Shown here: positions 30,527 to 54,669 of the stretch, one piece after another
Layout: each line of letters opens with the position of its first letter
Position numbering within the stretch: position 1 is the first letter of the stretch
Source: a virus
DNA length: 58,149 nucleotides
Reading direction: 5' to 3' (one strand)
IMG/VR virus record: IMGVR_UViG_3300034351_000038
Location: 1-58,149 of that record
Notes under the pieces: model-generated
What the model saw: only the letters and a program-made list of their open reading frames with translations
Told to the model about the DNA's origin: nothing
Database searches by the model: none
Made by a program: the position numbers and the translations under genes

Positions 30527-31077
30527 CCTAATCTTTTAATATCGATATAATTATTATCTACAAGCATTTTGAAAGCGTTGTATAAACCACGCACATCGTT
30601 TCTAGCTCTATGTGCATCTTTCAACGGCTTTCCAGCCAACTCACACAGTTCAGACAGCTTAAGTCTGTGTCCTTTTATTTGTTTACTGGCCTGAACAGTA
30701 CAAATGTGATGCCTTGGCCATGGGAAATTTATAAGTTTATCAATTCTGAGAAGCTCATTAGCGAGCATGCTAGTATCAAAAGATATATTATGCGCAACAA
30801 GGACATCTACTCCAGTCATAAATTTAGAAAATTCCGGATAGCATTTTAAAAACGATGGGCTTGACGAAACCATTTCGTTTGATATGCCAGTGAGCCTTTC
30901 AATCTCACTATCAATTGGAATTAATGGTTTAAAGAAGCTTTCGTATTCGCGCAGAAAATTAAAGTTTTCATCAATAACAGCACAATAGATCTCAATGATT
31001 TCTGGTTGCTCAATAAGACCAGCTGGGCTTGGTTTAAGCAGTCCAGTTGTTTCAGTGTCGAACAGGCAAAATTCCAT
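30523..31077 (-). CDS. dnaQ: DEDDh 3'-5' exonuclease (DnaQ/epsilon-like)
   Basis: 184 residues. The proofreading exonuclease motifs are complete: Exo I FDTETTG (Asp/Glu), Exo II VAHNISFDTSML (Asp) and Exo III HRARNDV (His and Asp). It probably proofreads for the C-family polymerase encoded after it, with a 4-base stop/start overlap. The second Met (MEFCLFDTETTG) lies six bases after AGGAG and is preferred, because the first ATG at 31083 abuts the ribosome site. A terminator-like hairpin precedes the gene. Confidence 0.93.
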   Translation of the reverse strand: MEFCLFDTETTGLLKPSPAGLIEQPEIIEIYCAVIDENFNFLREYESFFKPLIPIDSEIERLTGISNEMVSSSPSFLKCYPEFSKFMTGVDVLVAHNISFDTSMLANELLRIDKLINFPWPRHHICTVQASKQIKGHRLKLSELCELAGKPLKDAHRARNDVRGLYNAFKMLVDNNYIDIKRLG

Positions 31078-31094
31078 ATCCATCTCCTAATTTG

Positions 31095-31126
31095 AAAAAG
31101 TGGGAGGCATATGACAGCCCCCCCAC
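31095..31126 (-). terminator. Intrinsic terminator or attenuator ahead of exonuclease-polymerase
   Basis: Read leftward: GTGGGGGGGC and GCCTCCCAC pair (9 bp with one bulged G) around TGTCATAT, followed by TTTTT. It lies between the 186-residue protein gene and the exonuclease gene inside one operon, so it probably lowers transcription of the polymerase genes compared with the genes before it. Confidence 0.75.
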
Positions 31127-31135
31127 AACAGATTG

Positions 31136-31696
31136 TTACTGACTCAGCTTAGCTGCCAAATCATTAACAAGCTTTCTGATCCCCTGGAGACCAATTTCAC
31201 GCTTCAATGTTTTTTCTGTACCATTGGCCACAATAAAATCATGGACTTCCTCTTCGGTCATATTGGGGTTGTCGATGAGCGCGGCATAAAAATTCCTTGT
31301 GAATGAGCGACCAGTTCCGGATACCACTTCCTTCTTATATACTTCCATCCCGGTAGCCTTGGCATATCCACGCACAAGTGCAGCAGCAGATTTTTTACTT
31401 GTCCCATTCAACCTAGATACAAGATCGTCAACCACTGCATTAAATGCTTCAACAGTAGAAAGATCGCGACCAATAACACTTGCTTCTACAATAGAATCCC
31501 TCTTCTGTTTTGGAATAACCAAACCAGCATCAATAGACAGTTTATTGTACATTCGAGCAACATTCTTGAATTTTGCCCCTGCCTCGATCATATCAAGCTT
31601 GATTTCTTCCTCTTCTTTCCCTGCAGCAACACCAGCATTAAACGCATTCTTAATTTCTACAGAAATCTCTTGTTCGTTTTTGTTTTCTTCAGTCAT
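31136..31696 (-). CDS. Hypothetical replication-module protein, 186 aa
   Basis: Highly helical, mixed charge, no cysteines. Distinct segments: an acidic N-terminus (MTEENKNEQEISVEIKNAF), a repeated-looking basic middle with RDLSTVEAFNAVVDDLVSRL and a C-terminus with MTEEEVHDFIVANGTEKTLKREIG. The NPNMTEEEVHDFI unit resembles a helix-turn-helix-like start. It is encoded between helicase and exonuclease, with GAGGGATAAT before the ATG and a terminator after its stop, so it should be made in greater amounts than the polymerase. A DNA-binding or accessory replication role is plausible. No family recognised. Confidence 0.75.
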   Translation of the reverse strand: MTEENKNEQEISVEIKNAFNAGVAAGKEEEEIKLDMIEAGAKFKNVARMYNKLSIDAGLVIPKQKRDSIVEASVIGRDLSTVEAFNAVVDDLVSRLNGTSKKSAAALVRGYAKATGMEVYKKEVVSGTGRSFTRNFYAALIDNPNMTEEEVHDFIVANGTEKTLKREIGLQGIRKLVNDLAAKLSQ

Positions 31697-31753
31697 ATTA
31701 TCCCTCGATTAGTCATGTGTGTTTTGGAAAATTATATATTTACCTCCACAAAA

Positions 31754-33310
31754 TTAGTTGAATTTGTAATCGCAAACGGTATTAAACCGTTTCTCTTGTT
31801 TTATCAAAATACCAACTGGCACATCAAGATCTTCTCTAACAGCATATAATTCATCGACTGTGTTTATGCTATTCTTACCAAGTCTAAGTTCAATCCAGCG
31901 CGCTGCCATCAATCTTGCATACCCTGAGTGCTCAAGACACACCCATTCTTTCGCCTCAAGCCCATCTAACGTATGATATGTAACAACCAAACTCGGAGGA
32001 CGCCCAAGCTTACGATAGATCTTGTAATCAACTTTTGAAACCTCAGTCCAAAACGTATCCCTCCTTAATATTTGTACATTGGTTGCATCATCAAGACCAT
32101 GCTTAAATTTAAACTCATGACCACAATGACAATGTGTAACCCTTGGGTGATGAATCGCACCACACGCGGGACACTTCTTAGTTATCGGGGCCCCTCCTGT
32201 CTTTTCCCTCTTTCGCGCAACTACAACATCATTTATTGGCCCAAGCCTTTGTGTGTTACCTGCAAAATCCATCACACCGAAATGGGTTTTCCCTGGGAAG
32301 ATCCTTGTGCCCCTGCCAACCATCTGAACGTGGTAGACAGGAGATTTTGTTGATCTACCACATACAATCAAATCAACCTGCTTTGAGTTATATCCAGTTG
32401 TCAATGCATTGACACTAACAATTGCTTTATAGTAACCCTCTTCGTGCTGCCTCAGAATCTTTTCTCTATCACCATCCATTTTTGAATGAACAACATTGGC
32501 TCTAATACCAGATCGAATTAGATATTCGGCCATATGATCCGCGTGGTTGATGTCTATTGCGAACAATAACCATTTCTTATAATCTTCACCTACCCTTATT
32601 ACCTCATCTATGAGTGCTCTGGTTACTCTATCCCTATCAAAAGCACGAGACAGATCTCCTGATGCGAAATCTCCTGCTACAGTCCTTATCCCTTTTACAT
32701 CAAAATTCATTTTTGTCGCTAGTGTCCTTGGTGGACATAAAAATCCTCTATCTATCAATTCATTGAATTTATCATATGATGTATAATCATAAATCAAATC
32801 ATCAAAGAATGAATCTGACTGTCCGTATATGTACCCCACACCAAGTCTGTATTTTGTAGCAGTAAGACCAACACAAGCAACATTACTAAACTCCTTCAAG
32901 AACGTCCTATACATCCCTTCCTCTTTTGGTGGGATAAGATGTGCCTCATCTATTATAATTAACTTAACATCATTGAACAAGCTAGGGTTCTTATAAATTG
33001 ATTGTATGCCTGCAACAGAAACCTGGTCAGTAGTTCTCGAATTTAATCCTGCAGAATACAGCCCTGGAGAGATATCAGTTAGCTCATTTATCGTGTCGTA
33101 ATCTTGCTGAAGTATCTCTCTAACGTGAGATATAATTAGGACGTTTATCCCCCACCTACTAACTGCCTGCTCGACTATATCTGCTATCACAACGGTTTTG
33201 CCCGTCCCAGTAGGCAACCCTATGACTGGGTTCTTACCCTTGTTCTTCCTCAAATAATTGAACAATGTCTCTGGGATAGGCTCTTGATAGTAATATGGTT
33301 TGATTTTCAT
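31754..33310 (-). CDS. SF2 DEAH-box helicase with zinc finger
   Basis: 518 residues. The helicase motifs are in order: Walker A GLPTGTGKT (31-39), DEAH (121-124), LTATKYR (149-155), ALTTGYN (302-308) and motif VI QMVGRGTR (329-336). A four-cysteine zinc finger follows (Cys380, 383, 394, 396), then a C-terminal domain of about 110 residues. The layout matches phage UvsW/type III restriction-like repair helicases that remodel forks and recombination intermediates. It stands next to a PD-(D/E)XK nuclease, SSB-like protein and Sak4-like ATPase, forming a recombination set. Confidence 0.93.
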   Translation of the reverse strand: MKIKPYYYQEPIPETLFNYLRKNKGKNPVIGLPTGTGKTVVIADIVEQAVSRWGINVLIISHVREILQQDYDTINELTDISPGLYSAGLNSRTTDQVSVAGIQSIYKNPSLFNDVKLIIIDEAHLIPPKEEGMYRTFLKEFSNVACVGLTATKYRLGVGYIYGQSDSFFDDLIYDYTSYDKFNELIDRGFLCPPRTLATKMNFDVKGIRTVAGDFASGDLSRAFDRDRVTRALIDEVIRVGEDYKKWLLFAIDINHADHMAEYLIRSGIRANVVHSKMDGDREKILRQHEEGYYKAIVSVNALTTGYNSKQVDLIVCGRSTKSPVYHVQMVGRGTRIFPGKTHFGVMDFAGNTQRLGPINDVVVARKREKTGGAPITKKCPACGAIHHPRVTHCHCGHEFKFKHGLDDATNVQILRRDTFWTEVSKVDYKIYRKLGRPPSLVVTYHTLDGLEAKEWVCLEHSGYARLMAARWIELRLGKNSINTVDELYAVREDLDVPVGILIKQEKRFNTVCDYKFN

Positions 33311-33337
33311 TTTGTCCTATCCTACGAGTTTTTGTTC

Positions 33338-34177
33338 TTATGTAATAAATAGATCTGAAACAGAATACTTATCACATCCAACAATTTGCTTTTCAAACGG
33401 TATAGAATCAATCTTATTGGCACTGCAAGACCAGCGTCCACCATCTTCTAAATCTGAATATTCGCATGTCCTACAATTCTTATCTACAGGTTCCATTGCA
33501 AAACACTTTTCCCTTGCACCACACATACGACACTCAAACCATGTTTTTTCTCCGTTCCCTATCCTTTCGAATTGGTTTTTCGCAGTCAATATATCAACCT
33601 CTGCGCGGAGAGCCATATCATAGACGCTCTTGTCGAAATTTATAATGAAGTAAAGTCTTTCATCTGTGTTTTTATTTTTAACAACAAACAATGTCTTATT
33701 AAGATTCATTTTCCCCATATATAAATTGATCTGCCATATATATGCTGGCTCATAATCAATAAGGCCCTTATGATTTGTTTCTGGGTCATAAAGATTCTTG
33801 AATGCATTAAACCTTTCGTTATTAGCTGTTTTGCACTCAAGCAAGAACGTCTCTTCTGGATCGTCTATGACACCTAGTACCTTAGCATCAATATGGCCAC
33901 CAGAATGCCCCTGTAGGCCTGGCACTTCTAATTGCTGATCAAATACGGTGCACCCTACATCCTCAAGCTCATTTATGAGGATATCCTCTTCTGCGTGCCC
34001 TACATTTAAAAGTCTTTCCTTTCTTGGATTAATTGGTTTGTAAAAAGCCAATCTGAACGAATACAATACATATCTTTTGCATTTATGTCCTATAATAGAA
34101 TACCCAAGATACTCACGTTTAGAAGGGAAGACATCCATGTCTTCGATTTGTTGTTCTATCAACGTTCTACTTTCCAT
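33338..34177 (-). CDS. PD-(D/E)XK nuclease with C-terminal cysteine cluster
   Basis: 279 residues. The nuclease core shows GHID (Asp97), ECK (Glu114/Lys116) and a downstream helix YIWQINLYM with Gln149, as in RecB/Cas4-type exonucleases. The C-terminal region has at least eight cysteines, beginning FECRMCGAREKC and including CRTCEYSD, which could hold a 4Fe-4S cluster (Cas4/AddB-like) or zinc. Probably the exonuclease that makes single-stranded ends for the annealing system encoded upstream. Confidence 0.87.
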   Translation of the reverse strand: MESRTLIEQQIEDMDVFPSKREYLGYSIIGHKCKRYVLYSFRLAFYKPINPRKERLLNVGHAEEDILINELEDVGCTVFDQQLEVPGLQGHSGGHIDAKVLGVIDDPEETFLLECKTANNERFNAFKNLYDPETNHKGLIDYEPAYIWQINLYMGKMNLNKTLFVVKNKNTDERLYFIINFDKSVYDMALRAEVDILTAKNQFERIGNGEKTWFECRMCGAREKCFAMEPVDKNCRTCEYSDLEDGGRWSCSANKIDSIPFEKQIVGCDKYSVSDLFIT

Positions 34178-34183
34178 TTTTGC

Positions 34184-34672
34184 TCAAAACGGAGTATCAT
34201 CATCATCTTCCTGTTCATCGACACTTGTATCAACAGGACCAGACACAGGCATAACACCATCAGCCTTTTTAAATGCAACGATCCTATTACCAGCTGGGTA
34301 TTTACCTTGTGCTTCCTGTTTAACAAGCTTAATAGTCATAGGTTTCCCATGTAATACTTCCGTGACCTCTAAATCTCCTGCGAACCCAACTGCGTCGCAA
34401 ATACTACGCAGTCTTGAGTGGGCACTACGTTCTGCTTCTTTATTTTTGTTTACTATACATAGATTCTCATAAATAACTCGACCTTTACCTTTTGGTCCAA
34501 CAATATCAAAACGCAACGCAAGAATCTTTCCGCTTTGATCTTTTGCATTAGGGCCAGGTGCTTTGATTTCACTCTTTGTTATTTTTGCAAGATACTCTCC
34601 CTCAGGCAGAGGCAAAAAATCACCCATTGGTTCGTGATCACTGGTATTAAATGCTTTTGGTAATGTAGGCAT
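34184..34672 (-). CDS. DUF669-like single-stranded-DNA-binding protein
   Basis: 162 residues. The N-terminal FLPLPEGEYLAKITKSEIKAP and KGRVIYENLCIVN phrases match the DUF669 family, which lies beside Sak4 ATPases in many phages. The C-terminus ends in an acidic tail with DDDDTPF, very close to the DDDIPF tip by which bacterial SSB recruits partner enzymes. It likely protects ssDNA and recruits host or phage repair proteins. GAGAGGAAT precedes the ATG. Confidence 0.87.
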   Translation of the reverse strand: MPTLPKAFNTSDHEPMGDFLPLPEGEYLAKITKSEIKAPGPNAKDQSGKILALRFDIVGPKGKGRVIYENLCIVNKNKEAERSAHSRLRSICDAVGFAGDLEVTEVLHGKPMTIKLVKQEAQGKYPAGNRIVAFKKADGVMPVSGPVDTSVDEQEDDDDTPF

Positions 34673-34676
34673 GGTG

Positions 34677-35384
34677 TTATTCCTCTCTCTCTTGTTCTAC
34701 TTCGCTTTTCTGCTCTTTGGTTTTTTTAGCTTGAATTTTTTCAAATATATGAGTTAAGTTTGGTTTCTCGATTTGATTTAATTTCCCACTCCTATCTTTT
34801 GCAGCATATGAAATATCTGGCTGCGTTTGTAAATACCTATACTTCTTTCCTTTTTCTGTAACACCGATCCTCAAACAAAACAGCTCATCGAAATAAAACG
34901 GCAAATTAAGCTGATTTGTTTTTCCTGGCATCATCGGTCTATATGATGTAATACCACTGTAATCATCAGTAAAGACACCTTGTTTGGCTGTGAAGTATAC
35001 ATGCTTATCTTCGATGTTTCTAAATTTTGTAATCCATTTATGCATTAAATCATTTAACTTCCCATACGCTTGCCTCCCATCACTAACATTTTGTTTGTTT
35101 GTCAGTAATATTGATTCTGCTATATCAGAAATTGAATCTAAACAAATTGTACTATAGCTAGATGCAACAGCATAATCAAAACTTTCCTCTAACTCATCAA
35201 CAGTGTTAACAACCACAAACGGCAATCCAAACTCTTGCAAAGACAGCAATCCATTTTCTGTCGATATAATAAGTGGATTTGGAGCAGTTGCACACAATCT
35301 AGTTTTGCCAATTCCAGCATCACTATAGACAATCACTTTGACTGTACCACCCAAGTCAGCGGTATTTTTTACGGTTATCGCCAC
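34677..35384 (-). CDS. Sak4-like RecA-fold annealing ATPase (AAA_24)
   Basis: 235 residues. Walker A is YSDAGIGKTRL (near residues 20-30) and Walker B is in SYSTICLDSISDI. TAKQGVFTD and SYRPMMPGKTNQL are typical for Sak4/AAA_24 ATPases that anneal single strands together with an SSB-like partner, encoded next. The start is GTG at 35384 after GAGGAGGAAT. The charged C-terminus is rich in Glu/Lys. Confidence 0.88.
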   Translation of the reverse strand: MAITVKNTADLGGTVKVIVYSDAGIGKTRLCATAPNPLIISTENGLLSLQEFGLPFVVVNTVDELEESFDYAVASSYSTICLDSISDIAESILLTNKQNVSDGRQAYGKLNDLMHKWITKFRNIEDKHVYFTAKQGVFTDDYSGITSYRPMMPGKTNQLNLPFYFDELFCLRIGVTEKGKKYRYLQTQPDISYAAKDRSGKLNQIEKPNLTHIFEKIQAKKTKEQKSEVEQEREE

Positions 35385-35387
35385 TAG

Positions 35388-35771
35388 TTATTCCTCCTCA
35401 AGCACTGGCTTGGTTTTTATAGTTGGGGCACTAGGCTTTGTTTCTACACACTCGTCTAAATTCTTGCGCTCTTCCTCAGAAAGCTTTTTGTACTTGCTTA
35501 GTGACAATTCGTATTTTACAGAAACGCAATCTTTCTCTTTTTCTGTAAACTTATCTTTGTTTTTCTCATAATCCTTGAGTACGATTTTGTAGCTATAATC
35601 TCTTTTTACATCTGCAATATCTCCATTGGTGATAATAGTCTCCTTACCTTTTTTATCATCACCAAGAACCATAGAAGCTATCTCCTTACGCAAACTCATC
35701 TCTCTTTCTTTGTAAAATGATAGTTCAGTACTTGCGAATTTCCACTCTTCGAAAAGCTCTTCTCTATTCAT
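35388..35771 (-). CDS. Hypothetical helical protein, 127 aa
   Basis: Starts MNREELFEEWKFASTELSFYKEREMSLRKEIA and is almost entirely charged helix, ending KPSAPTIKTKPVLEEE. Proteins of this form often precede Sak4/DUF669 genes in phages, and a role in the recombination complex is plausible but not shown. The start at 35771 avoids the 26-base overlap with the endolysin that the longer frame (from 35798) would need. Confidence 0.7.
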   Translation of the reverse strand: MNREELFEEWKFASTELSFYKEREMSLRKEIASMVLGDDKKGKETIITNGDIADVKRDYSYKIVLKDYEKNKDKFTEKEKDCVSVKYELSLSKYKKLSEEERKNLDECVETKPSAPTIKTKPVLEEE

Positions 35772-35772
35772 A

Positions 35773-36180
35773 TTAAGGCCTAAATGTTTTGATACCAATG
35801 TGGTTTCTCACATCTATATGCAACCACGGTACGTTAAGTTCAAGACCCCTTATCAAATTGTAAGGACTCCTATGTTGATTATTCAATATATCCTCTCTTA
35901 CTTTATCTACAGTAGTCTTTGAAAAAAGACAATCGACAGCTCTACCAAATGAATGCTGACTGTATTTTCTGTAATACTTGCAGCCAGGAACTCTCAACCC
36001 AGACTCTGATCTATTCCCTCCATCATCCCAAGTGTTTATGATAATAGGACCATATATATTCCTAAGTGAGTCGATCAAAGATAACAGTGTTGGATCTAAT
36101 AGTTCCCACGCTTTACGTCCACGATCTGCATACACACTAGGCGGAACCAATTCTTGAATTTTAAAATACCTACACTCCAT
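35773..36180 (-). CDS. Peptidase M15 endolysin
   Basis: 135 residues. The metallopeptidase M15 motif SQHSFGRAVD (His76, Asp83) and the second motif WLHIDVR (His121) give the zinc site of D-Ala-D-Ala carboxypeptidase/L-Ala-D-Glu endopeptidase lysins. It cuts the peptide stems of peptidoglycan at lysis. It has no signal peptide, so it needs a holin. It is encoded in the replication operon, far from the 3TM holin at 8294 but next to a two-TM protein. Confidence 0.92.
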   Translation of the reverse strand: MECRYFKIQELVPPSVYADRGRKAWELLDPTLLSLIDSLRNIYGPIIINTWDDGGNRSESGLRVPGCKYYRKYSQHSFGRAVDCLFSKTTVDKVREDILNNQHRSPYNLIRGLELNVPWLHIDVRNHIGIKTFRP

Positions 36181-36469
36181 TCATAGCCTCTATTAATCTT
36201 CTCAAAGCACTTTCTGTAGCCATCGCTCTAGTTAATGCATCTTTGTATACCTTTTCAATCAATCCTAGAGCGGTTTTATGAAACTCTTTTGATTGGTCAG
36301 CTAACCTCGCGGACCTTTTAAATAAAGACGAAGCAAAAAATAAAACAAATTCCATTTGAATATATATAAAAGAGAATGCAGCAGCAAGTAAAAAACCATA
36401 ATATTTGTACAACATAATAGCAAAAAACGCAGACACTCCAATCCTAATAAAATTAAACAAATATCTCAT
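36170..36469 (-). CDS. Two-TM membrane protein, possible second holin or lysis regulator
   Basis: 99 residues: two N-terminal membrane helices (about residues 5-25 and 27-48, rich in Phe/Ala) and a basic amphipathic C-terminal half (LFKRSARLADQSKEFH ... LTRAMATESALRRLIEAM). It overlaps the endolysin start by 11 bases and the metallophosphoesterase stop by 4 bases. The neighbour suggests a holin, antiholin or spanin-like role. No family match recognised. Confidence 0.72.
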   Translation of the reverse strand: MRYLFNFIRIGVSAFFAIMLYKYYGFLLAAAFSFIYIQMEFVLFFASSLFKRSARLADQSKEFHKTALGLIEKVYKDALTRAMATESALRRLIEAMNGV

Positions 36470-38001
36470 TTTAGTCTCCTCATTATTGGTGACAACTCAC
36501 CTTTTACGATGCTATGCAAACAACATTTTCCATTGTCATATATTATTCCATTTGTTTTCATTGTGGAATCATATCCCTTTACATATGGTGGTGTTGACAT
36601 CGCCCCAACCTGATAGCATCCCTTCTCTATTCCTCCAGCGTGGTCATGTCCACACATAACCTTGTGCCCAGTCCTAGCAAAGGATTTAAGGCTTCCTCTG
36701 GCCCCTCTACCACCTCTGTGACCGTGTTGAGAGCAGTCTATGCCAGCCACCGAGAAGTAATCGTTGTAGTCAACGAACGTCAATTCGTTACTGCAGTATT
36801 TTTGCAAAAACAACCTATACAAATGACCATCACCACCCACAAGAAAGTCACCCCTTGCCATTTCACCGAGTTCGAAATAAAGATCAAGGTTTACCACATC
36901 GTTCTTTGGGTTGAATCTATTGAACCATTGATCTAAATGCTCGTGATGATTTGACCTAATCACTACTGCATTTTTCTTATCTTTCAAAAAATCAACAGAC
37001 AACATTAATTCGTCGCGAATTGAAAACTCACAATCAGTGTTCTTCCACAAATGAAACAATACATCATCTTTATGGTGATGTGATCCAATATGGTGATCGT
37101 GTACATCATTAAAAATTTGATATCTTGGGTTAAACACATCCGCGAGATATCTCATCTTTTCATGTATGTTTTTATCCAAAAATCTTACATGGATGTCTCC
37201 ATACATAAGTCCTGCAACACCATCAATCTTTGTGATCGTGTCTGGGGTGTAGTATTTGTCGAATAAATACGCTCCGGTACCATCGAAGTGAATTTGAGTT
37301 ACCCAAAACTTATCACCTTCCACTTCCACAAACAACGCGGAGATCGAGTGGTGCCTAGATGCTTTGGTTGCCTGCCTTGACATACCATAGTTTTGCTTAC
37401 TGATTGTTCCAGTAGTATGCAACATCTTTGGAAGAAACTCATAGGCAGTAGGCACAAACTTCAAAGCTACCTGCTGATGGCCATATATCTCTGATTGTAT
37501 GCGACCATTGTTATCAAGGCCATTCAACGGGCTTACGCTTGTGTACGGAATTCTCGATGCATCTCCACCACGAACTATTATTGATTCGTTCAAAGAAATG
37601 TCTGTATTACATATATATTTATATATCTCCACAGGCCAACTATAACCAGAAGATACACCCATATGAAACAAATCTGGGTTTTTATACACCGTTGGTATAA
37701 TAGCCAAAGATGCATCGAGATCACCCTTGATGTTTTCAAATGTCATAAGTGCGTCCATTACTACATCAGTGTCGTTTACAGCAGATGTGATTATGAATCT
37801 ATCCTTACTCAATATCTTATCTACTTTTGCCTTTGGCAAAAGACTTGGTTTTTCCTTAAGCGGTCTCGTTGTTCTAAAATTACACAATGGGCAACGATAT
37901 CTTCTCTTACCACTCTCTGCATATGTATCCCAATTATTCATTCCCTTATTACCACACTTTGGACAATATAGATTTTCATCTAATTTTTTTGACTCTGTCA
38001 T
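36466..38001 (-). CDS. Metallophosphoesterase with N-terminal zinc ribbon
   Basis: 511 residues. A four-cysteine zinc ribbon (Cys13, 16, 37, 40) is followed by a calcineurin-type phosphoesterase with all motifs: GDIH (Asp269/His271), FNDVHDHH (Asp299), RSNHHE (Asn351/His352), SQHGH (His426) and CGHDH (His452/His454). The zinc ribbon and histidine-rich insert suggest a DNA substrate. Phage T5 protein A1, needed for host DNA degradation and second-step transfer, is the kind of protein I would compare first, but similarity was not tested. It overlaps its neighbours by 4 bases on both sides. Confidence 0.85.
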   Translation of the reverse strand: MTESKKLDENLYCPKCGNKGMNNWDTYAESGKRRYRCPLCNFRTTRPLKEKPSLLPKAKVDKILSKDRFIITSAVNDTDVVMDALMTFENIKGDLDASLAIIPTVYKNPDLFHMGVSSGYSWPVEIYKYICNTDISLNESIIVRGGDASRIPYTSVSPLNGLDNNGRIQSEIYGHQQVALKFVPTAYEFLPKMLHTTGTISKQNYGMSRQATKASRHHSISALFVEVEGDKFWVTQIHFDGTGAYLFDKYYTPDTITKIDGVAGLMYGDIHVRFLDKNIHEKMRYLADVFNPRYQIFNDVHDHHIGSHHHKDDVLFHLWKNTDCEFSIRDELMLSVDFLKDKKNAVVIRSNHHEHLDQWFNRFNPKNDVVNLDLYFELGEMARGDFLVGGDGHLYRLFLQKYCSNELTFVDYNDYFSVAGIDCSQHGHRGGRGARGSLKSFARTGHKVMCGHDHAGGIEKGCYQVGAMSTPPYVKGYDSTMKTNGIIYDNGKCCLHSIVKGELSPIMRRLK

Positions 38002-38363
38002 TTTATCTGCTCCGCGTGTGTGCCATCATCTACACTTAGGAAATGATAATTAGGATGATTTTTTGTCAGAAAAATAGCCATAGCAAAAGTAGCAATATCG
38101 CGCAGACATTCACCGTTGCCAGTTTTTCGAAATATCTTAGTTCGTCTTATGATCTCCTTTGCTTGATCATAATTCCATTTGTTTTCTGTTTGGAGTCCGT
38201 ATCTAAACCTGGCCATAATACTAGCGTTGCGCATTAACTCAAAAAATTCCTCTGAATACATAGCCTCACATATGTAATCAAAATCTTCTTTCTTATCCCC
38301 AACTGGGGTTACCAATACGTTTGACAAAAGGTGATCTCTGATATGTTCGGTAACGCTTTTCAT
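37998..38363 (-). CDS. Conserved phage hypothetical protein, 121 aa
   Basis: Helical protein with SIMARFRYGLQTENKWNYDQAKEIIRRTKIF and GECLRDIATFAMAIFLTKNHPNYHF, a pattern I recall in many unrelated phages near nucleotide-metabolism genes, always without known function. Ends LSVDDGTHAEQIK. AAGAGGA site upstream. Overlaps the phosphoesterase start by 4 bases. Confidence 0.75.
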   Translation of the reverse strand: MKSVTEHIRDHLLSNVLVTPVGDKKEDFDYICEAMYSEEFFELMRNASIMARFRYGLQTENKWNYDQAKEIIRRTKIFRKTGNGECLRDIATFAMAIFLTKNHPNYHFLSVDDGTHAEQIK

Positions 38364-38381
38364 GTTGTATTCCTCTTAGCC

Positions 38382-40178
38382 TTAATCACATTCTTTGCGG
38401 CCAGTTGTTGGATCTATCCTGCACGCCTTACCTTCGTCATTAGATTCAATAATCCCCTTTTTGCTACCTGCATCCCTGTACGTAGTACAACCCTTGGCAC
38501 CACCATCCCATGCTCTAACATATATATCCTTGAAGTCTTCCCAGGTTATATCAGACGGCAGATTACACGTCTTGCTAACTGCAGAATCTACATTAGCGGC
38601 AGCAGTAAACAATACTTTAAGATGTTCATCCACTGTGACATCAGCGCATCTTTTGCCATTGACACCAAGAAACGCATGACCGTAGTCAACTTGATCCACG
38701 ATTCTTGGGCCATTAAAATCAATGATCTGCCTCTTTGTGTTATACGCAAAAACAGGCTCGATGCCAGATGATACGTTATCTGCGCACATCGAAATAGTTC
38801 CGGTTGGGGCTATGGATGTTAGATGTGAATTTCTGATCCCATATTTTGCTATTAGATCCACTGTATCTTCATCAAGTGTTTTAATAAACTTAGACTCAAG
38901 ATATTTATCCTTGTCAAACAGCTTGAATACACCCTTCTTTCTTGCTACCTCTACACTTGTCTTATAAGCTACATTTTTTAGGTGAGATAGGATATGATTC
39001 TCAAAACGACAAAAATTATCTGATCCGTATTCAAATCCAAGAGCTTCACCAGTGTTAGCTAAGCCTGTAACACCAATCCCCATCCTACGCTTTGTATAAG
39101 CCTCTACCCTTTGCTCTTCCAAAGGGAACCTAGACTTCTCTGGTACATTGTCCATTGCCATAACTACTACCCTTACATCATCATCAAATTGATCATAGTC
39201 AAATGAATATCTTCCGAATGTGTCCCTGTACAAATATCTTGTCAAGTTAAAAGAGCCAAGGAGACATGCACCATAAGGAGGAAGAGGTTGTTCCCCACAT
39301 GGGTTTGTTGCGACTATAGTTTCGCAATAATGAAGATTGTTCATCTCATTTATTCTATCAACGAAAAGAACCCCAGGATCGTCCCAGTCCCAAGTGCTAC
39401 GCATAAGCTCATCCCACAACCAGCGGGGATCAACTTCCCTATATATCTTGCCATTGAATTTTAATGGAAATGGCTTATCGTTAATCAAACATTTCATGAA
39501 CCTATCGGTTATTGCTACAGAAATATTGAACGCACTCAAAGCAAGAGTTGATTGCAGAGCAACCTTCATATCATTCTTTCTATCACATTCCTCAAGATCT
39601 TCTACCATATCCCATACATCTTGCATTCCTTGAGATGGATGTTTCGATCTAATGAACTCTTCGATATCTGGATGATCGATCCTGATAACACCCATCTGAG
39701 CCCCGCGTCTGTGGCCTGCTGAAGACACACGACCGCACACAGCATTATAAATATGCATAAAGCTGACTGCACCAGATGAATATGATTGCAGTTTTTTTAT
39801 CAAATCTCCACGTGGCCGAAGGGTACTAAAATCGTACCCAATTCCACCACCCATGCGCATAGTTTGTGCAGCTTGCTTGGCAACCTCCATTATTGAATTT
39901 TCTCCTTCAACAAAAGAGTCTCTGATTGTTCCAGACACAAAGCAGTTGTATGCCGTCACATTTTTTGTTGACCCAATAGCTGATTGCACCCTACCGCCAG
40001 GCATAAACCGCATATTAAGCAAGATTTCTCTTAGCGCAGAATAGTGTTCATCATCATCCTTCAGTGTGCTAGCAACACGTGTTACAACCTCCTCAAAAGT
40101 CTCTCCTTCCCCACAATATTTTTCTTTATATAGCCGTTTAGCAAATGTCGTTTGAGGTCCGATGATATTTTTATTCAA
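38382..40178 (-). CDS. nrdJ: Class II (B12-dependent) ribonucleotide reductase
   Basis: 598 residues. Reduces ribonucleotides to deoxyribonucleotides using adenosylcobalamin, so it needs no oxygen and no small subunit. The active site shows Cys79 in AYNCF, the radical Cys294 in TNPCGE and Cys305 in GACLLGSFNL (11 apart as in class II enzymes), plus APTGTIS. The C-terminus ends in a cysteine pair (CRIDPTTGRKECD), probably for re-reduction. No separate NrdB-like gene is seen. The start is TTG at 40178, eight bases after GAGGG. Confidence 0.95.
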   Translation of the reverse strand: MNKNIIGPQTTFAKRLYKEKYCGEGETFEEVVTRVASTLKDDDEHYSALREILLNMRFMPGGRVQSAIGSTKNVTAYNCFVSGTIRDSFVEGENSIMEVAKQAAQTMRMGGGIGYDFSTLRPRGDLIKKLQSYSSGAVSFMHIYNAVCGRVSSAGHRRGAQMGVIRIDHPDIEEFIRSKHPSQGMQDVWDMVEDLEECDRKNDMKVALQSTLALSAFNISVAITDRFMKCLINDKPFPLKFNGKIYREVDPRWLWDELMRSTWDWDDPGVLFVDRINEMNNLHYCETIVATNPCGEQPLPPYGACLLGSFNLTRYLYRDTFGRYSFDYDQFDDDVRVVVMAMDNVPEKSRFPLEEQRVEAYTKRRMGIGVTGLANTGEALGFEYGSDNFCRFENHILSHLKNVAYKTSVEVARKKGVFKLFDKDKYLESKFIKTLDEDTVDLIAKYGIRNSHLTSIAPTGTISMCADNVSSGIEPVFAYNTKRQIIDFNGPRIVDQVDYGHAFLGVNGKRCADVTVDEHLKVLFTAAANVDSAVSKTCNLPSDITWEDFKDIYVRAWDGGAKGCTTYRDAGSKKGIIESNDEGKACRIDPTTGRKECD

Positions 40179-40202
40179 ATTGTTACCCTCTATTTTTATG
40201 TT

Positions 40203-40571
40203 TTACGTCTCCTTCAGTGGAAAAGGAGTTTTGTGGGTTGGCGCTTTCCTATTGACAACCCTACGGACGATATTTTCTGGTGTCAAAGGTTGAAGATTCC
40301 TTCCAACCTCAGAGTTTCTAAAGAGATAATAAGCAAATCGTGTATAACCAAGAGTTTCAAGAGCGCGTTTCGCGATACACCACGTTCTTTCATTGACTAA
40401 TGAAGCATAGTTTCCCCAACCATAATAGGTTTCTCTTTCGTCAAGATATTTATTATCAAGTGTAAAAAACTCCCAATTGCCACTTTTACCTTTTGAGATT
40501 TTGGTGACAAGCCTCCTAGCACACTTAATTGCGAATCTAATTTCTTTTTCAGAGAAAGCTTTGGTACTCAT
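40203..40571 (-). CDS. Hypothetical protein, 122 aa
   Basis: Basic, aromatic-rich soluble protein (FAIKCARRLVTKISKGKSGNWEFFTLDNKY ... TWCIAKRALETLGYTRFAYYLF). The end is proline- and lysine-rich. GGAG precedes the ATG. It overlaps the upstream gene by 23 bases. No family recognised. Confidence 0.7.
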   Translation of the reverse strand: MSTKAFSEKEIRFAIKCARRLVTKISKGKSGNWEFFTLDNKYLDERETYYGWGNYASLVNERTWCIAKRALETLGYTRFAYYLFRNSEVGRNLQPLTPENIVRRVVNRKAPTHKTPFPLKET

Positions 40572-40806
40572 AATTTAAACTCCTAAGATAGTTTTCAGCT
40601 GCCTTATACATACAATCGATTAAGTCATCGCTAACAAAATCAATTATATTGACATTTTTGTAGGCTACCTCCCTCAAATATATCTCTTCACAACTACCCG
40701 GTGAAAATGCGCCTTCTACTACACACGGCGCTTCAGCCGGTTCATATTCAAAAACAACCTCAAGCTGTTTGTCACAATAAAGTGTATTGAACCTATATTG
40801 TATCAT
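40549..40806 (-). CDS. Conserved phage hypothetical protein, 85 aa
   Basis: Contains LEVVFEYEPAEAPCVVEGAFSPGSCEEIYLREVAYKNVNIIDF. The EYEPAE...G...PG...E..L..V....I pattern is frequent in short phage proteins of unknown function. Start supported by GGAG and an ATGA overlap with the gene before it. Confidence 0.75.
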   Translation of the reverse strand: MIQYRFNTLYCDKQLEVVFEYEPAEAPCVVEGAFSPGSCEEIYLREVAYKNVNIIDFVSDDLIDCMYKAAENYLRSLNYEYQSFL

Positions 40807-41225
40807 GATAACAACTCCCGTAGTTTAGCTGTTTGACGCTCAGCTTCCCATTTATCTCCGGCGTACCATCTGGTAGCTCTGGCTGCCCGATTGGCCCAGT
40901 CAGCAGCCTCGGAGATTCTATCTGAGTATGGGGTGTGATCATCTGCTAATTCTGAAGCCCTCTCAGCGGCCTCAGTGACCTCATCTACTGGTCCACCTGT
41001 CAGTATAGCTGCTCGTTCAGCGCACCAATGAGCGAACTCTGCAGCAACCCTAGGACATGCTCGCAGGCACCAGATAGTATCATGCAGCCCACGAATATCC
41101 AGGATTGTAACCAACGGAAAAGGATCATTGTCAATCTTGCGCCTACGGAGATGATCAAAAATCTCATCCCATGGCCTTCCATATGGGAAGAAGGTGTGTA
41201 TCTCTTTAAGGGTTGTGTATATCAT
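40803..41225 (-). CDS. Ala-rich hypothetical protein, 140 aa
   Basis: Starts MIYTTLKEIHTFFPYG after AGGAAAAACAGT. The longer frame to 41285 would run through a hairpin and lacks a ribosome site. The central GLHDTIWCLRACPRVAAEFAHWCAERA and the following Ala-rich segment (EAADWANRAARATRWYAGDKWEAERQ) are amphipathic helices. Similar GL.DA.WCLR proteins occur in other phages without a known role. First protein gene after the tRNA in the leftward operon. Confidence 0.75.
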   Translation of the reverse strand: MIYTTLKEIHTFFPYGRPWDEIFDHLRRRKIDNDPFPLVTILDIRGLHDTIWCLRACPRVAAEFAHWCAERAAILTGGPVDEVTEAAERASELADDHTPYSDRISEAADWANRAARATRWYAGDKWEAERQTAKLRELLS

Positions 41226-41359: not shown

Positions 41360-41436
41360 TGGTCGGGACGGGAGGATTCGAACCTCCGACAACCAACTCC
41401 CAAGGCTGGGGCTCTACCAGGCTGAGCTACGTCCCG
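41360..41436 (-). tRNA. tRNA-Pro (anticodon UGG)
   Basis: A full cloverleaf reads leftward: acceptor CGGGACG / CGTCCCG, D-stem GCTC/GAGC, anticodon stem CCAGC/GTTGG with loop CTTGGGA (anticodon TGG, reading CCA and probably CCN), T-arm GGAGG-TTCGAAT-CCTCC, discriminator A. The 3' CCA is encoded. It begins about nine bases after the expected start of the leftward transcript, so it is the first gene of the replication operon. Confidence 0.96.
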
Positions 41437-41451
41437 CGTTTTATGACTTTA

Positions 41452-41480
41452 AGTATAAGCATAATCAAATAAGAATGCAA
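41452..41480 (-). promoter_or_regulatory. Leftward promoter of the replication operon
   Basis: Read leftward: TTGCAT (41480-41475), 17-base spacer, TATACT (41457-41452). RNA would begin near 41445, just before the tRNA. Together with the rightward promoter at 41483-41511 it forms a divergent pair with identical hexamers and -35 boxes separated by only two bases. Confidence 0.82.
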
Positions 41481-41482
41481 GA

Positions 41483-41511
41483 TTGCATTGCCACCAACAT
41501 GCATATATACT
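41483..41511 (+). promoter_or_regulatory. Rightward promoter for the primase-helicase operon
   Basis: TTGCAT (41483-41488), 17-base spacer, TATACT (41506-41511). The hexamers are identical to those of the leftward promoter. The transcript would begin near 41518 with a leader of roughly 115 bases containing the inverted repeat GGTGGCCAGCCACC at 41568-41581, then the zinc-ribbon and primase genes. Confidence 0.82.
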
Positions 41512-41631
41512 TCTATATTAGGTGGTTATGATGTTTTATCGTAAAAACCACTATGCCAAATAGGAAGGTGGCCAGCCACCATCATATGGATGCAGGATTA
41601 GGAAACAACTCAATTTAAATAAGGTACCAAC

Positions 41632-41802
41632 ATGTGTGAACCAGTTGTAAGATGTCCTTTGTGTGGGAATATTATTCATAATGCAAAACCTGGAGAAGCC
41701 GAAGAATGTGATTATTGCCATGATGAATTTTATGAAGAAGAGCGCAACACAAAAAGGACGTTCAAAAAGACACTGAGAAAGATGAACAAACCAAAAGATT
41801 AG
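41632..41802 (+). CDS. Zinc-ribbon micro-protein, 56 aa
   Basis: Starts MCEPVVRCPLCGN, with a CPLCG ... CDYCH pair of CxxC knuckles about 15 residues apart (zinc ribbon) and a basic tail (RNTKRTFKKTLRKMNKPKD). AAGGT lies before the ATG, and the primase-helicase gene follows within 14 bases. Probably a nucleic-acid-binding helper of replication or a transcription factor. First gene of the rightward early operon. Confidence 0.78.
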   Translation: MCEPVVRCPLCGNIIHNAKPGEAEECDYCHDEFYEEERNTKRTFKKTLRKMNKPKD

Positions 41803-41815: not shown

Positions 41816-44134
41816 ATGTCTATCAAGACAACCAATTTCGTTGGAAATCAATATAACGTCGATAATGGCGTTGTTCGTGAATACTCTTTTATTCAGTTGG
41901 CAAAGCAATTTAGTAAACCAATACAAGGCGAAAAGCATATTGGTTATTTTGTACGTGGTGAGTTAGTCCCTCTACACAGAGATAATGGGAATCTCTCTTA
42001 CAGTGAACTACTTATCATTGACGGAGACAGCTCGCTAGACAACCCTCATAGTGCCCCCAAGGCGGAAGATGTTCATAATGCGCTGACAAAAATGAACATC
42101 CGTCATTTCCTTTATACATCTCATAGCCATAGCCCAAAAGAAAACATTCACAAATATCGTGTTGTGATACATTGTGTGTTGCCCGAAGAAAAGTATTTGA
42201 AACCGACGGCAATGAAAATCATTTATGATCTAAACAATGCTGGGGTGCCGATAAAATATGTGAAGGAAATGGGAACATGGACGCAGCCGTGGTTTATTCC
42301 TAGTAGAGATGACATAAATGATGGTGCATTCGAGTTTTATTACAATGGAGATGAATGTTACGAAGACGGCCGCAAGACAAAAATGTACGAGGCCGTAAGG
42401 GAAGTTGATATACCAGAGGAAGTGGAGTGTAATGGCGTCAAGTACGACACTCAATTTGACAGCAGTGCTTGGGATGGCAAAATCCTTAAGATGTATGAGG
42501 CTGGCTCTTTTCACAATGAAGTTAGGGATATCCTATACGGGTTTCTGAAAGACGGCGTAGCTGCGCCTATGGCTTTCAAACTGGTAAAGGGGATATTAGA
42601 CGCTGTCCCAGAGAGTAAGAAAAATGAGTCATGGCACAGAGAAACAAAGGACAACTACGCAGAGGTCAGACGTTCATTAGAGGGTGTACTGCAGAAGTTT
42701 GATATTGGTTCTGAAAACTCCGAGATTGGAGAACTAGCAAACCCGTTGCCAAGTGAGCATGTAGATGATATAGACTGGCCTCCTGGGCTCATGGGTGAGT
42801 TAGCTCAAAGCGTCCATGAATACAGCTATCATCAGTATAAGATCGTTAGTATCATCACGGCACTTGCTTTGGTGGCTGGCATAGCAGGAAGAAAATTCAA
42901 TGTGTCTGGAACTGGTTTGAATCTTTACATAACTCTGTTAATGAGAATGGGTGCAGGTAAGAATGTCATTCAAGAATACATCAGCCAGTTTCTAAGTAGA
43001 GATATTTTAAGCATGAACAGGAATTTTCTCGGGCCAAAAAGATTTACATCGCCCAAGGCAATATTGGATACCCTGGCAATGTCTCCAAGTATTGTAAGTG
43101 TGCAAACCGAGGCTGGATTGATGTTTAAGTCTTCCGCTGGTGATCAGCATGGCATTTTGCGCGCTATGCTTGATCTATATAGCAGCTCTGGGAAAAATCA
43201 GTACAGCGGCGCTGAGGCATATAGTTCAAAAGATGCTAGCATACAGGCATTAAGGGCCCCAGCCTTGACCATCGTGAATGAGGCTACACCAAAAACATTC
43301 GAAGATGAACTCGTCAATCGCGGGAGTGTGGAGAGTGGCGAATTGGCCAGGATGCACATTTTCAAATATGATGTCCCGAAGCCATACCGGAACCCGAATG
43401 GTGGCAAGATGGTATTGAGCAAGAGGCTTGATTCTCATATGAACAAACTGATGTCGCACTGCAACAATCAGAAGGCATCTGGAGAGGGAAGTGATCCTAG
43501 GGCGATGGATATCCCATTCCCAGTCGATCTATTTGATGCCTTTAGCCGTGCGTGCGTAGACTGTGAAAACAAATTTGTCAATGAAGACTCGTTAAAATTG
43601 GCCATGATCACCCGGGCCCCCATAAAAGTGTTGAAGGTAGCTGGTCTGCTCGCTGTCATGGACAATCAAGTTATCACAGATGAGCACTGGGCATGGGCAC
43701 TTAAGTTGTTTCACTATGAGTTCTCTATGATGCAAGCTCTAGTCGGTGTGACAAGAAGCTCTGCTAACGAATTAGATTCTGCAATAGACAACACAATGAT
43801 CCCATGTATCGTGAAGTTGCTCAACAACGAATATGATTCGTCCATAAGGAGAGTTAATGAGAATCTAAGGAAACTTGGGATCTTCACGATGAGCGCAATC
43901 AACAATATTGTCAAGGCCAAAAAGGATATCTCAGATCTCTCCACCAGCGGAAAGAGTGGTGTGGTAAGATGCCTTGATCATATGGTTATGTTGGGTTATT
44001 TGGAAAGGGTTTCGAAGGAAAGGATGCAACAGATTTCCTTGAAAAACAAAGATTATAGCGCTGGTTATGAAATCACAAGGAACTTTGCTATTTATTGGAA
44101 GAACATAAACACTAGGAAAACTTTAAAAATATAG
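41816..44134 (+). CDS. Primase-helicase (AEP-like N-terminus, DUF3987-like C-terminus)
   Basis: 772 residues. The N-terminal third has LLIIDGDSSLDNPH (an acidic metal-binding DxD site) and LYTSHSHSPKENIHKYRVVIH, typical of archaeo-eukaryotic-type primases. The C-terminal half begins PPGLMGELAQSVHEYSYHQYKIVSIITALALVAGIAGR and has LLMRMGAGKN in the Walker A position (GKN rather than GKS/T), as in DUF3987-like helicase modules. It likely opens the duplex and primes synthesis for the C-family polymerase. The last 100 residues look like a winged helix. Confidence 0.82.
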   Translation: MSIKTTNFVGNQYNVDNGVVREYSFIQLAKQFSKPIQGEKHIGYFVRGELVPLHRDNGNLSYSELLIIDGDSSLDNPHSAPKAEDVHNALTKMNIRHFLYTSHSHSPKENIHKYRVVIHCVLPEEKYLKPTAMKIIYDLNNAGVPIKYVKEMGTWTQPWFIPSRDDINDGAFEFYYNGDECYEDGRKTKMYEAVREVDIPEEVECNGVKYDTQFDSSAWDGKILKMYEAGSFHNEVRDILYGFLKDGVAAPMAFKLVKGILDAVPESKKNESWHRETKDNYAEVRRSLEGVLQKFDIGSENSEIGELANPLPSEHVDDIDWPPGLMGELAQSVHEYSYHQYKIVSIITALALVAGIAGRKFNVSGTGLNLYITLLMRMGAGKNVIQEYISQFLSRDILSMNRNFLGPKRFTSPKAILDTLAMSPSIVSVQTEAGLMFKSSAGDQHGILRAMLDLYSSSGKNQYSGAEAYSSKDASIQALRAPALTIVNEATPKTFEDELVNRGSVESGELARMHIFKYDVPKPYRNPNGGKMVLSKRLDSHMNKLMSHCNNQKASGEGSDPRAMDIPFPVDLFDAFSRACVDCENKFVNEDSLKLAMITRAPIKVLKVAGLLAVMDNQVITDEHWAWALKLFHYEFSMMQALVGVTRSSANELDSAIDNTMIPCIVKLLNNEYDSSIRRVNENLRKLGIFTMSAINNIVKAKKDISDLSTSGKSGVVRCLDHMVMLGYLERVSKERMQQISLKNKDYSAGYEITRNFAIYWKNINTRKTLKI

Positions 44135-45772: not shown

Positions 45773-46261
45773 ATGACAACTATCATAGCTGATGCAAAAA
45801 GCAAGATCATGATATCAGACACAAGCGCAAATGGTGGATATGGAACGTTTGCAAGCAAGAAGGTTTTTAAGGACGACAATGTTGCTGTGGGAATAGCAGG
45901 TGATGCAATTATTGGTAAACGACTTGCAGAATTTATTTTATCTTCTGATTATCTTGATGAAGAAGATCTATTAAATCTAAAAGAGTCAGCAGCTTTTGAC
46001 GAAGATAAAGGTAACGATTCAGAGGCCTTGATTCTAACAAGTGATGGAAGAATATTCTTCATGGAAAATGAATATTTTGAAAAGATTGAGGTGTTTGATG
46101 ATTATTTCGCCATTGGCAGCGGAGCAAAATTCGCCAGGGGAGCAATGCATGCTGCGTCATTGTATAATGACGACCCTGTAGCTGTTATCAAGACGGCTCT
46201 TCAGGTTGCAGCTAAACTAGACCCTTTCACTGGCTCTGAGTTCAAAATTTTTCATTTTTAG
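45773..46261 (+). CDS. Proteasome/HslV-like Ntn hydrolase
   Basis: 162 residues. The start MTTIIAD puts Thr at position 2, the N-terminal nucleophile after Met removal, as in HslV (TTIV). The MISDTSANGG motif carries the conserved Asp, and KKVFK carries the catalytic Lys. GIAGDAIIGKRLAEFI, LTSDGRIFFME, DYFAIGSGAKFARGAMHA and AAKLDPFTG are the standard order of proteasome beta-fold strands and helices. A self-compartmentalised protease or peptidase may result. No partner ATPase (HslU/Clp) is seen in the window. It may assist capsid or host-protein turnover. Confidence 0.87.
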   Translation: MTTIIADAKSKIMISDTSANGGYGTFASKKVFKDDNVAVGIAGDAIIGKRLAEFILSSDYLDEEDLLNLKESAAFDEDKGNDSEALILTSDGRIFFMENEYFEKIEVFDDYFAIGSGAKFARGAMHAASLYNDDPVAVIKTALQVAAKLDPFTGSEFKIFHF

Positions 46262-50336: not shown

Positions 50337-50365
50337 TTGCAAAATAATATAGGTTAATCTATAAT
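50337..50365 (+). promoter_or_regulatory. Strong promoter of the right-hand accessory operon
   Basis: TTGCAA, 17-base spacer, perfect TATAAT, in A/T-rich DNA. RNA starts near 50372, with the leader ending GTCTTAGGAGTCAAATC at the ATG 50405. No other promoter or terminator of comparable quality is visible up to 57727, so this may drive the whole gene array. Confidence 0.85.
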
Positions 50366-51674: not shown

Positions 51675-51905
51675 GTGAAAAAGAATACAGAGCTGTCGAA
51701 AGGAGATACAGTGAGAATGGATCCCGATGGATACGCGCTCATCAATAATGATGAGTCTACATCACCAATTCCCATGTGGATCCCAGGTATTGGAGAAGTC
51801 ATAAGGTGTGAAGAAGGTCAAACCTGGGTAGAGTGGGATAATGGCCTAGAGACCGTTCATCAATCGACACGCACATATTTGATGAGAGTAGAAGATGAGC
51901 AATAG
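51675..51905 (+). CDS. SH3-like (WDNG) family, one domain, diverged first copy
   Basis: 76 residues from a GTG start (VKKNTELSKGDTVRM) nine bases after GGGAGG. The frame is open further back but lacks a better start. It has the KGDTV opening and the WVEWDNGLETV end of the family, with an insertion (NNDESTSPIPMWIPGIGEVI) replacing NPLGV. It is the most diverged and the first member of the array. It overlaps the next gene by 11 bases. Confidence 0.75.
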   Translation: MKKNTELSKGDTVRMDPDGYALINNDESTSPIPMWIPGIGEVIRCEEGQTWVEWDNGLETVHQSTRTYLMRVEDEQ

Positions 51906-52314
51906 AGCTGTTGTTAGAGGCGATAGAGTTATTCTGTCTGAGCTTACTGAGTGGGATTATTCTTACGCAAATCCACTTGGTGTTGTGGGGACCGTTGATT
52001 ATATATACCCAGTTGATCAAGATAACTCTGTATGGATTGAGGTTTTGTGGGATAACGGAGAGATAAATCAATACGACAGAGATGAATACGATCTAATAAA
52101 GGTGCAAGAAATCGAAGACAATCGACAATTGTCAAAAGGAGACAGAGTGACGTTGTTAGCTAATGCTAAGTGGCAAAAATTTACTCAAAACAAACTGGGC
52201 ATAGTGGGGTCTGTTGTTCATATTGGGAAATACGTAATCTTGATACATTGGGACAACGGATTTGAAAATTTTAGTAGCACCAAAGACAATGGTATTGTAA
52301 AGGTGATAAAATGA
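51895..52314 (+). CDS. Two-domain SH3-like (WDNG) protein
   Basis: 139 residues. Domain 1: RGDRVILSEL ... YANPLGVVGTV ... VLWDNGEINQYDRDEYDLIKV. Domain 2: KGDRVTLLANAKW ... NKLGIVGSV ... IHWDNGFENF ... VKVIK. Domain 1 is longer in the strand after GTV. The second has lost the Tyr in the WDNG...Y motif. ATGA overlap with the next gene keeps translation coupled. Confidence 0.85.
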   Translation: MSNRAVVRGDRVILSELTEWDYSYANPLGVVGTVDYIYPVDQDNSVWIEVLWDNGEINQYDRDEYDLIKVQEIEDNRQLSKGDRVTLLANAKWQKFTQNKLGIVGSVVHIGKYVILIHWDNGFENFSSTKDNGIVKVIK

Positions 52315-52763
52315 AAAACAAAGATTTGATTAAAGGCGATAGGGTAGTGTTATCAGATGATACAAGATGGAATACAAAACGTGAATCTAATCCTTTGGGG
52401 GTAATGGGAACAGTAATTGATCCAGATGAAAGTTATTGTATGAATCTTTTTTCAGGTCATGTGTTCGTTAGGTGGGACAATGGGGTTGAGAACTCATACG
52501 CCCCATATGAAGATGACTTAGTGAGGGTAAGAAAAACGATCAATAGTGATTTAATGCGTGGTGATAGAGTAATGTTGTTAGCTAATACGAAATGGAACAC
52601 AAACTATGAATCTAATCCTTTGGGTGTAAAAGGAACAGTAATTGATCCAGATGAAAGTGATTATGGTATTGTTTCTTCAAAAAATGTGGTAGTTAAGTGG
52701 GATAATGGGTTTGAGAACACATACAAAGAATATGAATATGACTTGGTGAGGGTAGAAAAATGA
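52311..52763 (+). CDS. Two-domain SH3-like protein with near-identical halves
   Basis: 150 residues. Both units contain ESNPLGV-GTVIDPDES, and their DNA is almost identical across this stretch, so they are recent duplicates. The junction (VRVRKTINSDLMRGDRVML) corresponds to the stop/start junction between this gene and the next (VEK, stop; MINSDLVRGDRVVL), which shows a domain fusion or fission by one indel and a substitution. See findings. Confidence 0.87.
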   Translation: MKNKDLIKGDRVVLSDDTRWNTKRESNPLGVMGTVIDPDESYCMNLFSGHVFVRWDNGVENSYAPYEDDLVRVRKTINSDLMRGDRVMLLANTKWNTNYESNPLGVKGTVIDPDESDYGIVSSKNVVVKWDNGFENTYKEYEYDLVRVEK

Positions 52764-52981
52764 TCAATAGTGATTTAGTTCGTGGTGATAGAGTGGTTCT
52801 TTCCATAAATACACGTTGGAATTATGATTATCCATCCAATCCAGCTGGGATTAAAGGAAGAGTCACTAACCCTCGATTCGTAGATTACAGTGGTTATCTG
52901 TGTGTTGAGGTTCGGTGGGATAACGGGGAATTTAATACTTACAAACTAGATGATAATGATTTGATCAAGGTGGCACCATGA
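52760..52981 (+). CDS. Single-domain SH3-like (WDNG) protein
   Basis: 73 residues: MINSDLVRGDRVVLSINTRWNYDYPSNPAGIKGRV ... VEVRWDNGEFNTYKLDDNDLIKV. It is the clearest stand-alone unit and defines the domain borders. ATGA overlaps on both sides. Confidence 0.85.
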   Translation: MINSDLVRGDRVVLSINTRWNYDYPSNPAGIKGRVTNPRFVDYSGYLCVEVRWDNGEFNTYKLDDNDLIKVAP

Positions 52982-53382
52982 GCAACCGTGATTTGATTAA
53001 AGACGATAGAGTCATGTTGTCGCATGACAATGTATGGATGATTGGAAATGACAACCCCTTAGGTGTGGTTGGGACTGTTTCTTATGACATATCCATTGGT
53101 TGGATTAGTGTTTATTGGGATAATGGGACACTTAACACCTATTATGAAGGTGATAGTGATCTGGTGAAAGTAAGAGAACTCGAATTCAACGAGGAACTTG
53201 AAGAGGGCGACAGAGTAATGTTGTTGGCTACCACTAAGAATGCTATTGGCCCCACAAACCCTTTGGGTGTTAAAGGAACAGCCACTTACCTTGGGAAACA
53301 TACATTGTCGGTAAGATGGGATACTGGAGAAGAAAACGTTTATTATGGAGAGGACAATGAATTAGTGAAGGTAGAATCATGA
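52978..53382 (+). CDS. Two-domain SH3-like (WDNG) protein
   Basis: 134 residues. Domain 1: KDDRVMLSHD ... NPLGVVGTV ... VYWDNGTLNTYYEGDSDLVKV. Domain 2: EGDRVMLLATTKN ... NPLGVKGTA ... VRWDTGEENVYYGEDNELVKV. Both domains have the full signature. Four-base overlaps with neighbours. Confidence 0.86.
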   Translation: MSNRDLIKDDRVMLSHDNVWMIGNDNPLGVVGTVSYDISIGWISVYWDNGTLNTYYEGDSDLVKVRELEFNEELEEGDRVMLLATTKNAIGPTNPLGVKGTATYLGKHTLSVRWDTGEENVYYGEDNELVKVES

Positions 53383-54060: not shown

Positions 54061-54065
54061 GGGTT

Positions 54066-54164
54066 ATGAAGATGATGAAAGACTCAACTCAGTTTGTTAT
54101 AGCCATGGCTCTTTTGGTTGGATGGATAGTGTTCACAGTCTTCCTCGTGTCTGACTCTATTTAA
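54066..54164 (+). CDS. Single-TM micro-protein, 32 aa
   Basis: MKMMKDSTQFVIAMALLVGWIVFTVFLVSDSI, with GGGGTT before the ATG. One membrane helix. Begins six bases after the winged-helix gene. Confidence 0.5.
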   Translation: MKMMKDSTQFVIAMALLVGWIVFTVFLVSDSI

Positions 54165-54176
54165 CTGGGACAAATC

Positions 54177-54668: not shown

Positions 54669-54669
54669 C

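Follow-up and report, generated by a model that had tools for sequence, protein, structure and literature searches.

The short region that separates two divergently oriented gene blocks in this viral genome raises the question of whether it holds a pair of promoters, a binding site for a regulator or some other kind of inverted repeat. An exact-match search of the window, by which we mean the whole stretch analyzed (an IMG/VR virus record of 58,149 bases), recovered TTGCAT-N17-TATACT exactly twice, once per strand, at 41452-41480 (minus) and 41483-41511 (plus), as the preliminary description had reported correctly to the letter and the coordinate. The leftward copy is composed of a -35 box at 41475-41480 and a -10 box at 41452-41457, both on the minus strand, and the rightward copy of a -35 box at 41483-41488 and a -10 box at 41506-41511, both on the plus strand; all four are exact matches to TTGCAT or TATACT. 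The 17-bp spacer falls within the 16-18 bp range on each strand, the -35 box matches only three of six consensus positions, and neither promoter carries an extended -10 (TGn). The two -35 boxes are adjacent, parted by the 2-bp gap GA (41481-41482), and transcription would proceed outward into divergent genes. From the usual distance between -10 and +1, the leftward start is predicted at about 41445-41444 (minus) and the rightward start at about 41518-41520 (plus), which places the starts 73 bp apart, with the -10 boxes separated by 48 bp (41457 to 41506). We consider it likely that these elements are back-to-back host sigma70-type promoters that launch two divergent early transcription units of the phage.

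The position of the pair is consistent with this reading. The structural genes are read rightward as far as 26,850, a leftward arm extends from 41,222 to 26,883, and a rightward arm from 41,632 to approximately 57,700; given this layout, 41437-41631 is the only clear divergent junction of the record, and the promoter pair lies within it, at the switch of coding strand. (The 2.2 kb ahead of the terminase, 844-3092, carry no convincing rightward genes and are left unassigned.) The junction is A+T-rich (65%) and the GC skew changes sign there. Both features could also be expected if the 60-bp region, instead of being a pair of promoters, were a structural inverted repeat, whether replication-origin-like or of another kind, but we regard this as highly improbable, since the skew flips because the coding strand changes at the junction, and only the hexamers are symmetric, iterons and long repeats being absent.

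The leftward unit opens with a tRNA-Pro(TGG) gene (41360-41436, minus; identified by ARAGORN and, at 64.6 bits, by the Rfam tRNA model), the sole match of the Rfam scan, whose 5' end is 8-9 nt downstream of the predicted leftward start. The first protein gene of this arm (40803-41222, minus) belongs to phrog_18326, of unknown function. The arm as a whole (26,883-41,222, minus, about 14 kb) encodes, within 27466-41222, a ribonucleotide reductase (RNR), an A1-like protein, an endolysin-like protein, Sak4-like, SSB and Cas4-like exonuclease proteins, a helicase, a 3'-5' exonuclease, a DnaE-type polymerase and a CsrA-like regulator. By one strict rule, the leftward promoter is the only sigma70-like intergenic candidate on the minus strand in the entire leftward arm. 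Two products of this arm deserve mention in their own right. A CsrA-like RNA-binding regulator (27466-27663, minus; Pfam CsrA 39.8 bits against a cut-off of 27) is encoded directly downstream of the DnaE polymerase gene, and a protein of the T5 A1 (DNA transfer) family (36466-38001, minus; phrog_1745, E 1e-91) is encoded by a phage that is otherwise unlike T5.

On the other side, the first rightward gene encodes a 56-aa cysteine-rich, zinc-ribbon-like protein (41632-41802, plus), called from its ORF and from weak, sub-threshold matches. It is followed by a primase-helicase (41816-44134, plus; phrog_3022, 1.2e-75; DUF3987, 33.5 bits against a cut-off of 27) and by genes for an HslV-like peptidase, dCMP deaminase, thymidylate synthase and many small proteins. 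Position and gene content thus support well that the divergent promoters feed the two gene blocks, with tRNA, RNR, recombination and polymerase genes on one side and primase-helicase on the other, as originally proposed. Between the rightward -10 box and the first gene lies a leader (41512-41631, plus) that contains short ORFs as well as two small hairpins, and whose folding is no more stable than that of shuffled sequences (z 0.14). The short ORFs (41528-41618, plus) overlap, reading MMFYRKNHYAK and MPNRKVASHHHMDAGLGNNSI, are accompanied by the hairpin GGTGGCCAGCCACC, and could be leader peptides. Further along this arm we noted the HslV/proteasome-like peptidase (45773-46261, plus; phrog_1040, 1.7e-26) and a run of similar small proteins of the phrog_9469 family (51895-55896, plus), which share a 'DRVxLS...NPLGVxGTV' motif, have no known function and are apparently tandem gene duplicates.

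How readily could such a pair arise by chance? The exact motif TTGCAT-N17-TATACT occurs on average 0.06 times per shuffled window, an expectation that is post hoc because the motif was picked after it had been seen, and two copies were found in 0 of 100 shuffles. A general rule (TTG-type -35 with at least 3/6 matches, -10 with at least 5/6, spacer 16-18 bp, gap 0-20 bp) yielded one back-to-back pair in the window, compared to a mean of 0.195 per shuffled window, and a pair with identical boxes arose once in 200 shuffled windows. When the 195-bp junction was shuffled alone, any pair appeared in 0.3% of cases and one with identical boxes in none of 20,000. Over 1.33 Mb of viral loci the same rule returned 13 pairs, duplicates of the window's own pair included, so that non-identical back-to-back pairs are not rare. 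The identical mirrored boxes are, in this sense, statistically unusual yet mechanistically modest.

Taken individually, the promoters are probably of moderate strength, as judged from the score of 10.2 bits that each obtains with an approximate sigma70 matrix, exceeded by 37 of the 116,226 window positions. TTGCAT is a weak -35, with three of the six bases of TTGACA, although the host's own sigma consensus may differ; because of these three matches the pair is absent from a standard, stricter promoter scan. The poor -35 boxes leave room for a reading in which just one promoter is real, most plausibly the leftward one ahead of the tRNA, the other being coincidental and the right arm starting elsewhere. 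Indeed, the strict rule places other candidates within the rightward arm, at 48367, 50337 and 57738, and the first two could serve as such starts. We nevertheless find this reading distinctly unlikely: the rightward site scores as high as the leftward one and is outscored by no other plus-strand site in the junction, and identical boxes on both strands of a divergent junction would very seldom arise by chance. The same candidates limit the earlier proposal that the locus is the control center of early transcription, which agrees with the left arm, where the promoter is the sole intergenic candidate, but is less apt for the right arm, which has the further sites at 48367 and 50337. The candidate at 50337-50365 (plus), TTGCAA-N17-TATAAT, lies in the gap after the thymidylate synthase gene and is a third of the TTGCA type, this time without a dyad.

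We then consider the dyad itself. Together the -35 boxes form AATGCAA-GA-TTGCATT (41474-41489, unstranded), a candidate operator; previously described as a near-perfect inverted repeat, it is in fact perfect, with 7-bp arms. It could be bound by a dimer of a phage or host regulator that would cover both -35 boxes and silence both arms, or recruit polymerase to them. In agreement with this possibility, the palindrome is single and unique, lies exactly over both -35 boxes, and includes in each box the same non-consensus CAT, beyond what sigma70 alone requires. Nevertheless, a palindrome arises of necessity wherever identical hexamers stand back to back, and the dyad is thus not independent evidence. 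The 14-bp core ATGCAA-NN-TTGCAT has one exact copy in the window, with no second exact dyad, and the eight copies found there with up to two mismatches are at chance level (5.7 expected). No HTH repressor was recognized among the genes scanned, which include part of the small ones, the CsrA-like RNA-binding protein being the only regulator found, and the TTGCA of the 50337 site, which lacks a dyad, points to a promoter preference. An operator here is thus unlikely, though it should be kept in mind; the regulator-binding site put forward in the preliminary description cannot be separated from the -35 boxes, where the symmetry ends.

The extent of that symmetry is informative. The 60-bp region comprises 30 symmetric pairs, half of which (15) match; 12 of these matches are box positions, and over the pairs compared the symmetry of the spacers is at background. 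This confinement to the boxes fits two promoters and not an inverted duplication. A long operator or origin was rejected on the same grounds, together with the absence of iterons.

If the locus is, as we favor, a promoter pair, a host sigma70-type polymerase would most likely fire both promoters early in infection; a phage RNA polymerase was not recognized in the set of window proteins scanned. The leftward transcript would begin 8-9 nt ahead of tRNA-Pro and run on into the nucleotide-metabolism, recombination and DNA polymerase genes, and the rightward transcript would carry a leader of approximately 115 nt before the zinc-ribbon-like gene and the primase. Each promoter would serve as the upstream region of the other. 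With starts 73 bp apart, a polymerase initiating at one promoter should crowd or slow the other, and polymerases present at both would touch or overlap upstream of the -35 boxes, so that the two probably fire in alternation or in partial competition. Neither full mutual exclusion nor a dedicated regulator would be needed. Of the earlier suggestion that only one promoter can be occupied at a time, the crowding is thus predicted by the distance, whereas full exclusion goes a step beyond it. Despite their identical boxes the promoters need not match in strength, since the DNA upstream of the rightward promoter is A+T-rich (GCATAATCAAATAAGAATGCAAGAT) and that upstream of the leftward promoter less so. 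A more ambitious proposal is that the mirrored element works as an either/or timer: at any moment a single polymerase would enter either the DNA polymerase/RNR arm or the primase arm, so that both parts of the replication machinery would be made at a fixed ratio with no regulator involved, and a dimeric factor might sit on the -35 dyad; taken jointly, we judge these claims very unlikely.

The closest familiar arrangement is that of the lambda PR and PRM promoters, which are back-to-back, divergent and sigma70-dependent, with starts 82 bp apart. The resemblance is that, at a divergent control junction of a phage, two promoters face outward with their -35 regions side by side, close enough for their polymerases to interfere. 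The lambda promoters are unequal and accompanied by three CI/Cro operators, whereas in the window the boxes are identical, the starts are approximately 73 bp apart, and neither a repressor gene nor a set of operators was found. The neighboring genes encode tRNA-Pro, the phrog_18326 protein and the zinc-ribbon-like 56-aa protein, with no match to a repressor family, and in place of several dyad operators there is one exact dyad with mismatched copies at chance level. The T5 early promoters N25 and H207 are used by host sigma70 and carry a non-consensus, TTGC-type -35, a 17-bp spacer, TATAAT and strong A+T-rich flanks. The window pair has the TTGC-type -35 and the 17-bp spacer in common with them, and we do not claim it as a member of the T5 group; to our knowledge, the T5 early promoters are not mirrored pairs of this kind.

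The bidirectional promoters described by Warman, Grainger and co-workers also consist of pseudo-symmetric DNA transcribed both ways, with potential for competition (PMC12825309). These share one -10 element and have starts most often 18 bp apart, and also 10 or 23 bp apart (PMC12825309). The window differs in that its -10 boxes are separate and distant and its -35 boxes adjacent: where a shared or overlapping -10 and starts about 10-23 bp apart would be expected, the distances are 48 bp and 73 bp, respectively. In E. coli promoters with overlapping -10 elements exclusion is obligatory, and yet there was no competition at basal strength; strong activation of one direction was required to bring it out (PMC12825309). 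A search of the available literature returned no paper that sets a direct precedent for back-to-back promoter interference. The pair is a tidy, real-looking divergent one with a well-known architecture, an ordinary start for two gene blocks. If its starts are confirmed, it would offer a naturally occurring and unusually symmetric system for testing polymerase interference, in which boxes and spacing are identical, 73 bp separate the starts, and only spacer and upstream sequence differ, and it would identify the early control point of a phage without close relatives among sequenced genomes.

Similar dyads can be found in other viruses. ATGCAANNTTGCAT-N16-18-TATA has 68 matches in IMG/VR, most of them inside genes, and in one alone, on the unrelated viral contig L059, are there good -10 boxes on both sides in a divergent junction; with just one such case, the dyad cannot count as a conserved module shared by many viruses. 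In L059 the mirrored pair (1702-1761) reads ATGCAA-TG-TTGCAT, with a 2-bp gap, 17-bp spacers and -10 boxes TATACT (left) and TATAAT (right). The layout between divergent genes is that of the window, but the genes are different, and none of the window proteins searched matched L059, with no homology seen. It is likely an independent case of the mirrored arrangement, which speaks for a promoter pair, and, having been found by a motif search, a selected example.

Conservation could be followed only at a distance. The window has no nucleotide match in phage records, and no relatives of its TerL and A1-like protein were found in IMG/VR. For DnaE, identity to the viral contigs found does not exceed 50% and is 46% in the case of Cronobacter phage Ss1, RNR matches reach at most 57% identity in contigs that share no other searched gene, and primase relatives at most 35%; a scan of a genome collection gave a distant DnaE as its sole match. 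These nucleotide, TerL, A1-like, DnaE, RNR and primase searches provided no close homolog of the junction to align, and this absence of close relatives counts against the support for a promoter pair. Ss1 and Vibrio phage VA-RY-3, which are related, each have a single co-directional block that unites genes for primase, Sak4-like protein, SSB, exonuclease, helicase and polymerase, whereas in the window the primase is split off in the opposite direction. The nearest, still distant, primase relatives (L113 and L003) lack a mirrored promoter pair, which also counts against our preferred reading, and in the remaining primase relatives, where the upstream sequence extends far enough, the genes in it are mainly co-directional. 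In both L113 (268-627) and L003 (418-639), a small gene judged by eye to be helix-turn-helix-like lies directly upstream of the primase, with an opposite-strand ORF beyond it, and occupies the place that the zinc-ribbon-like gene has in the window.
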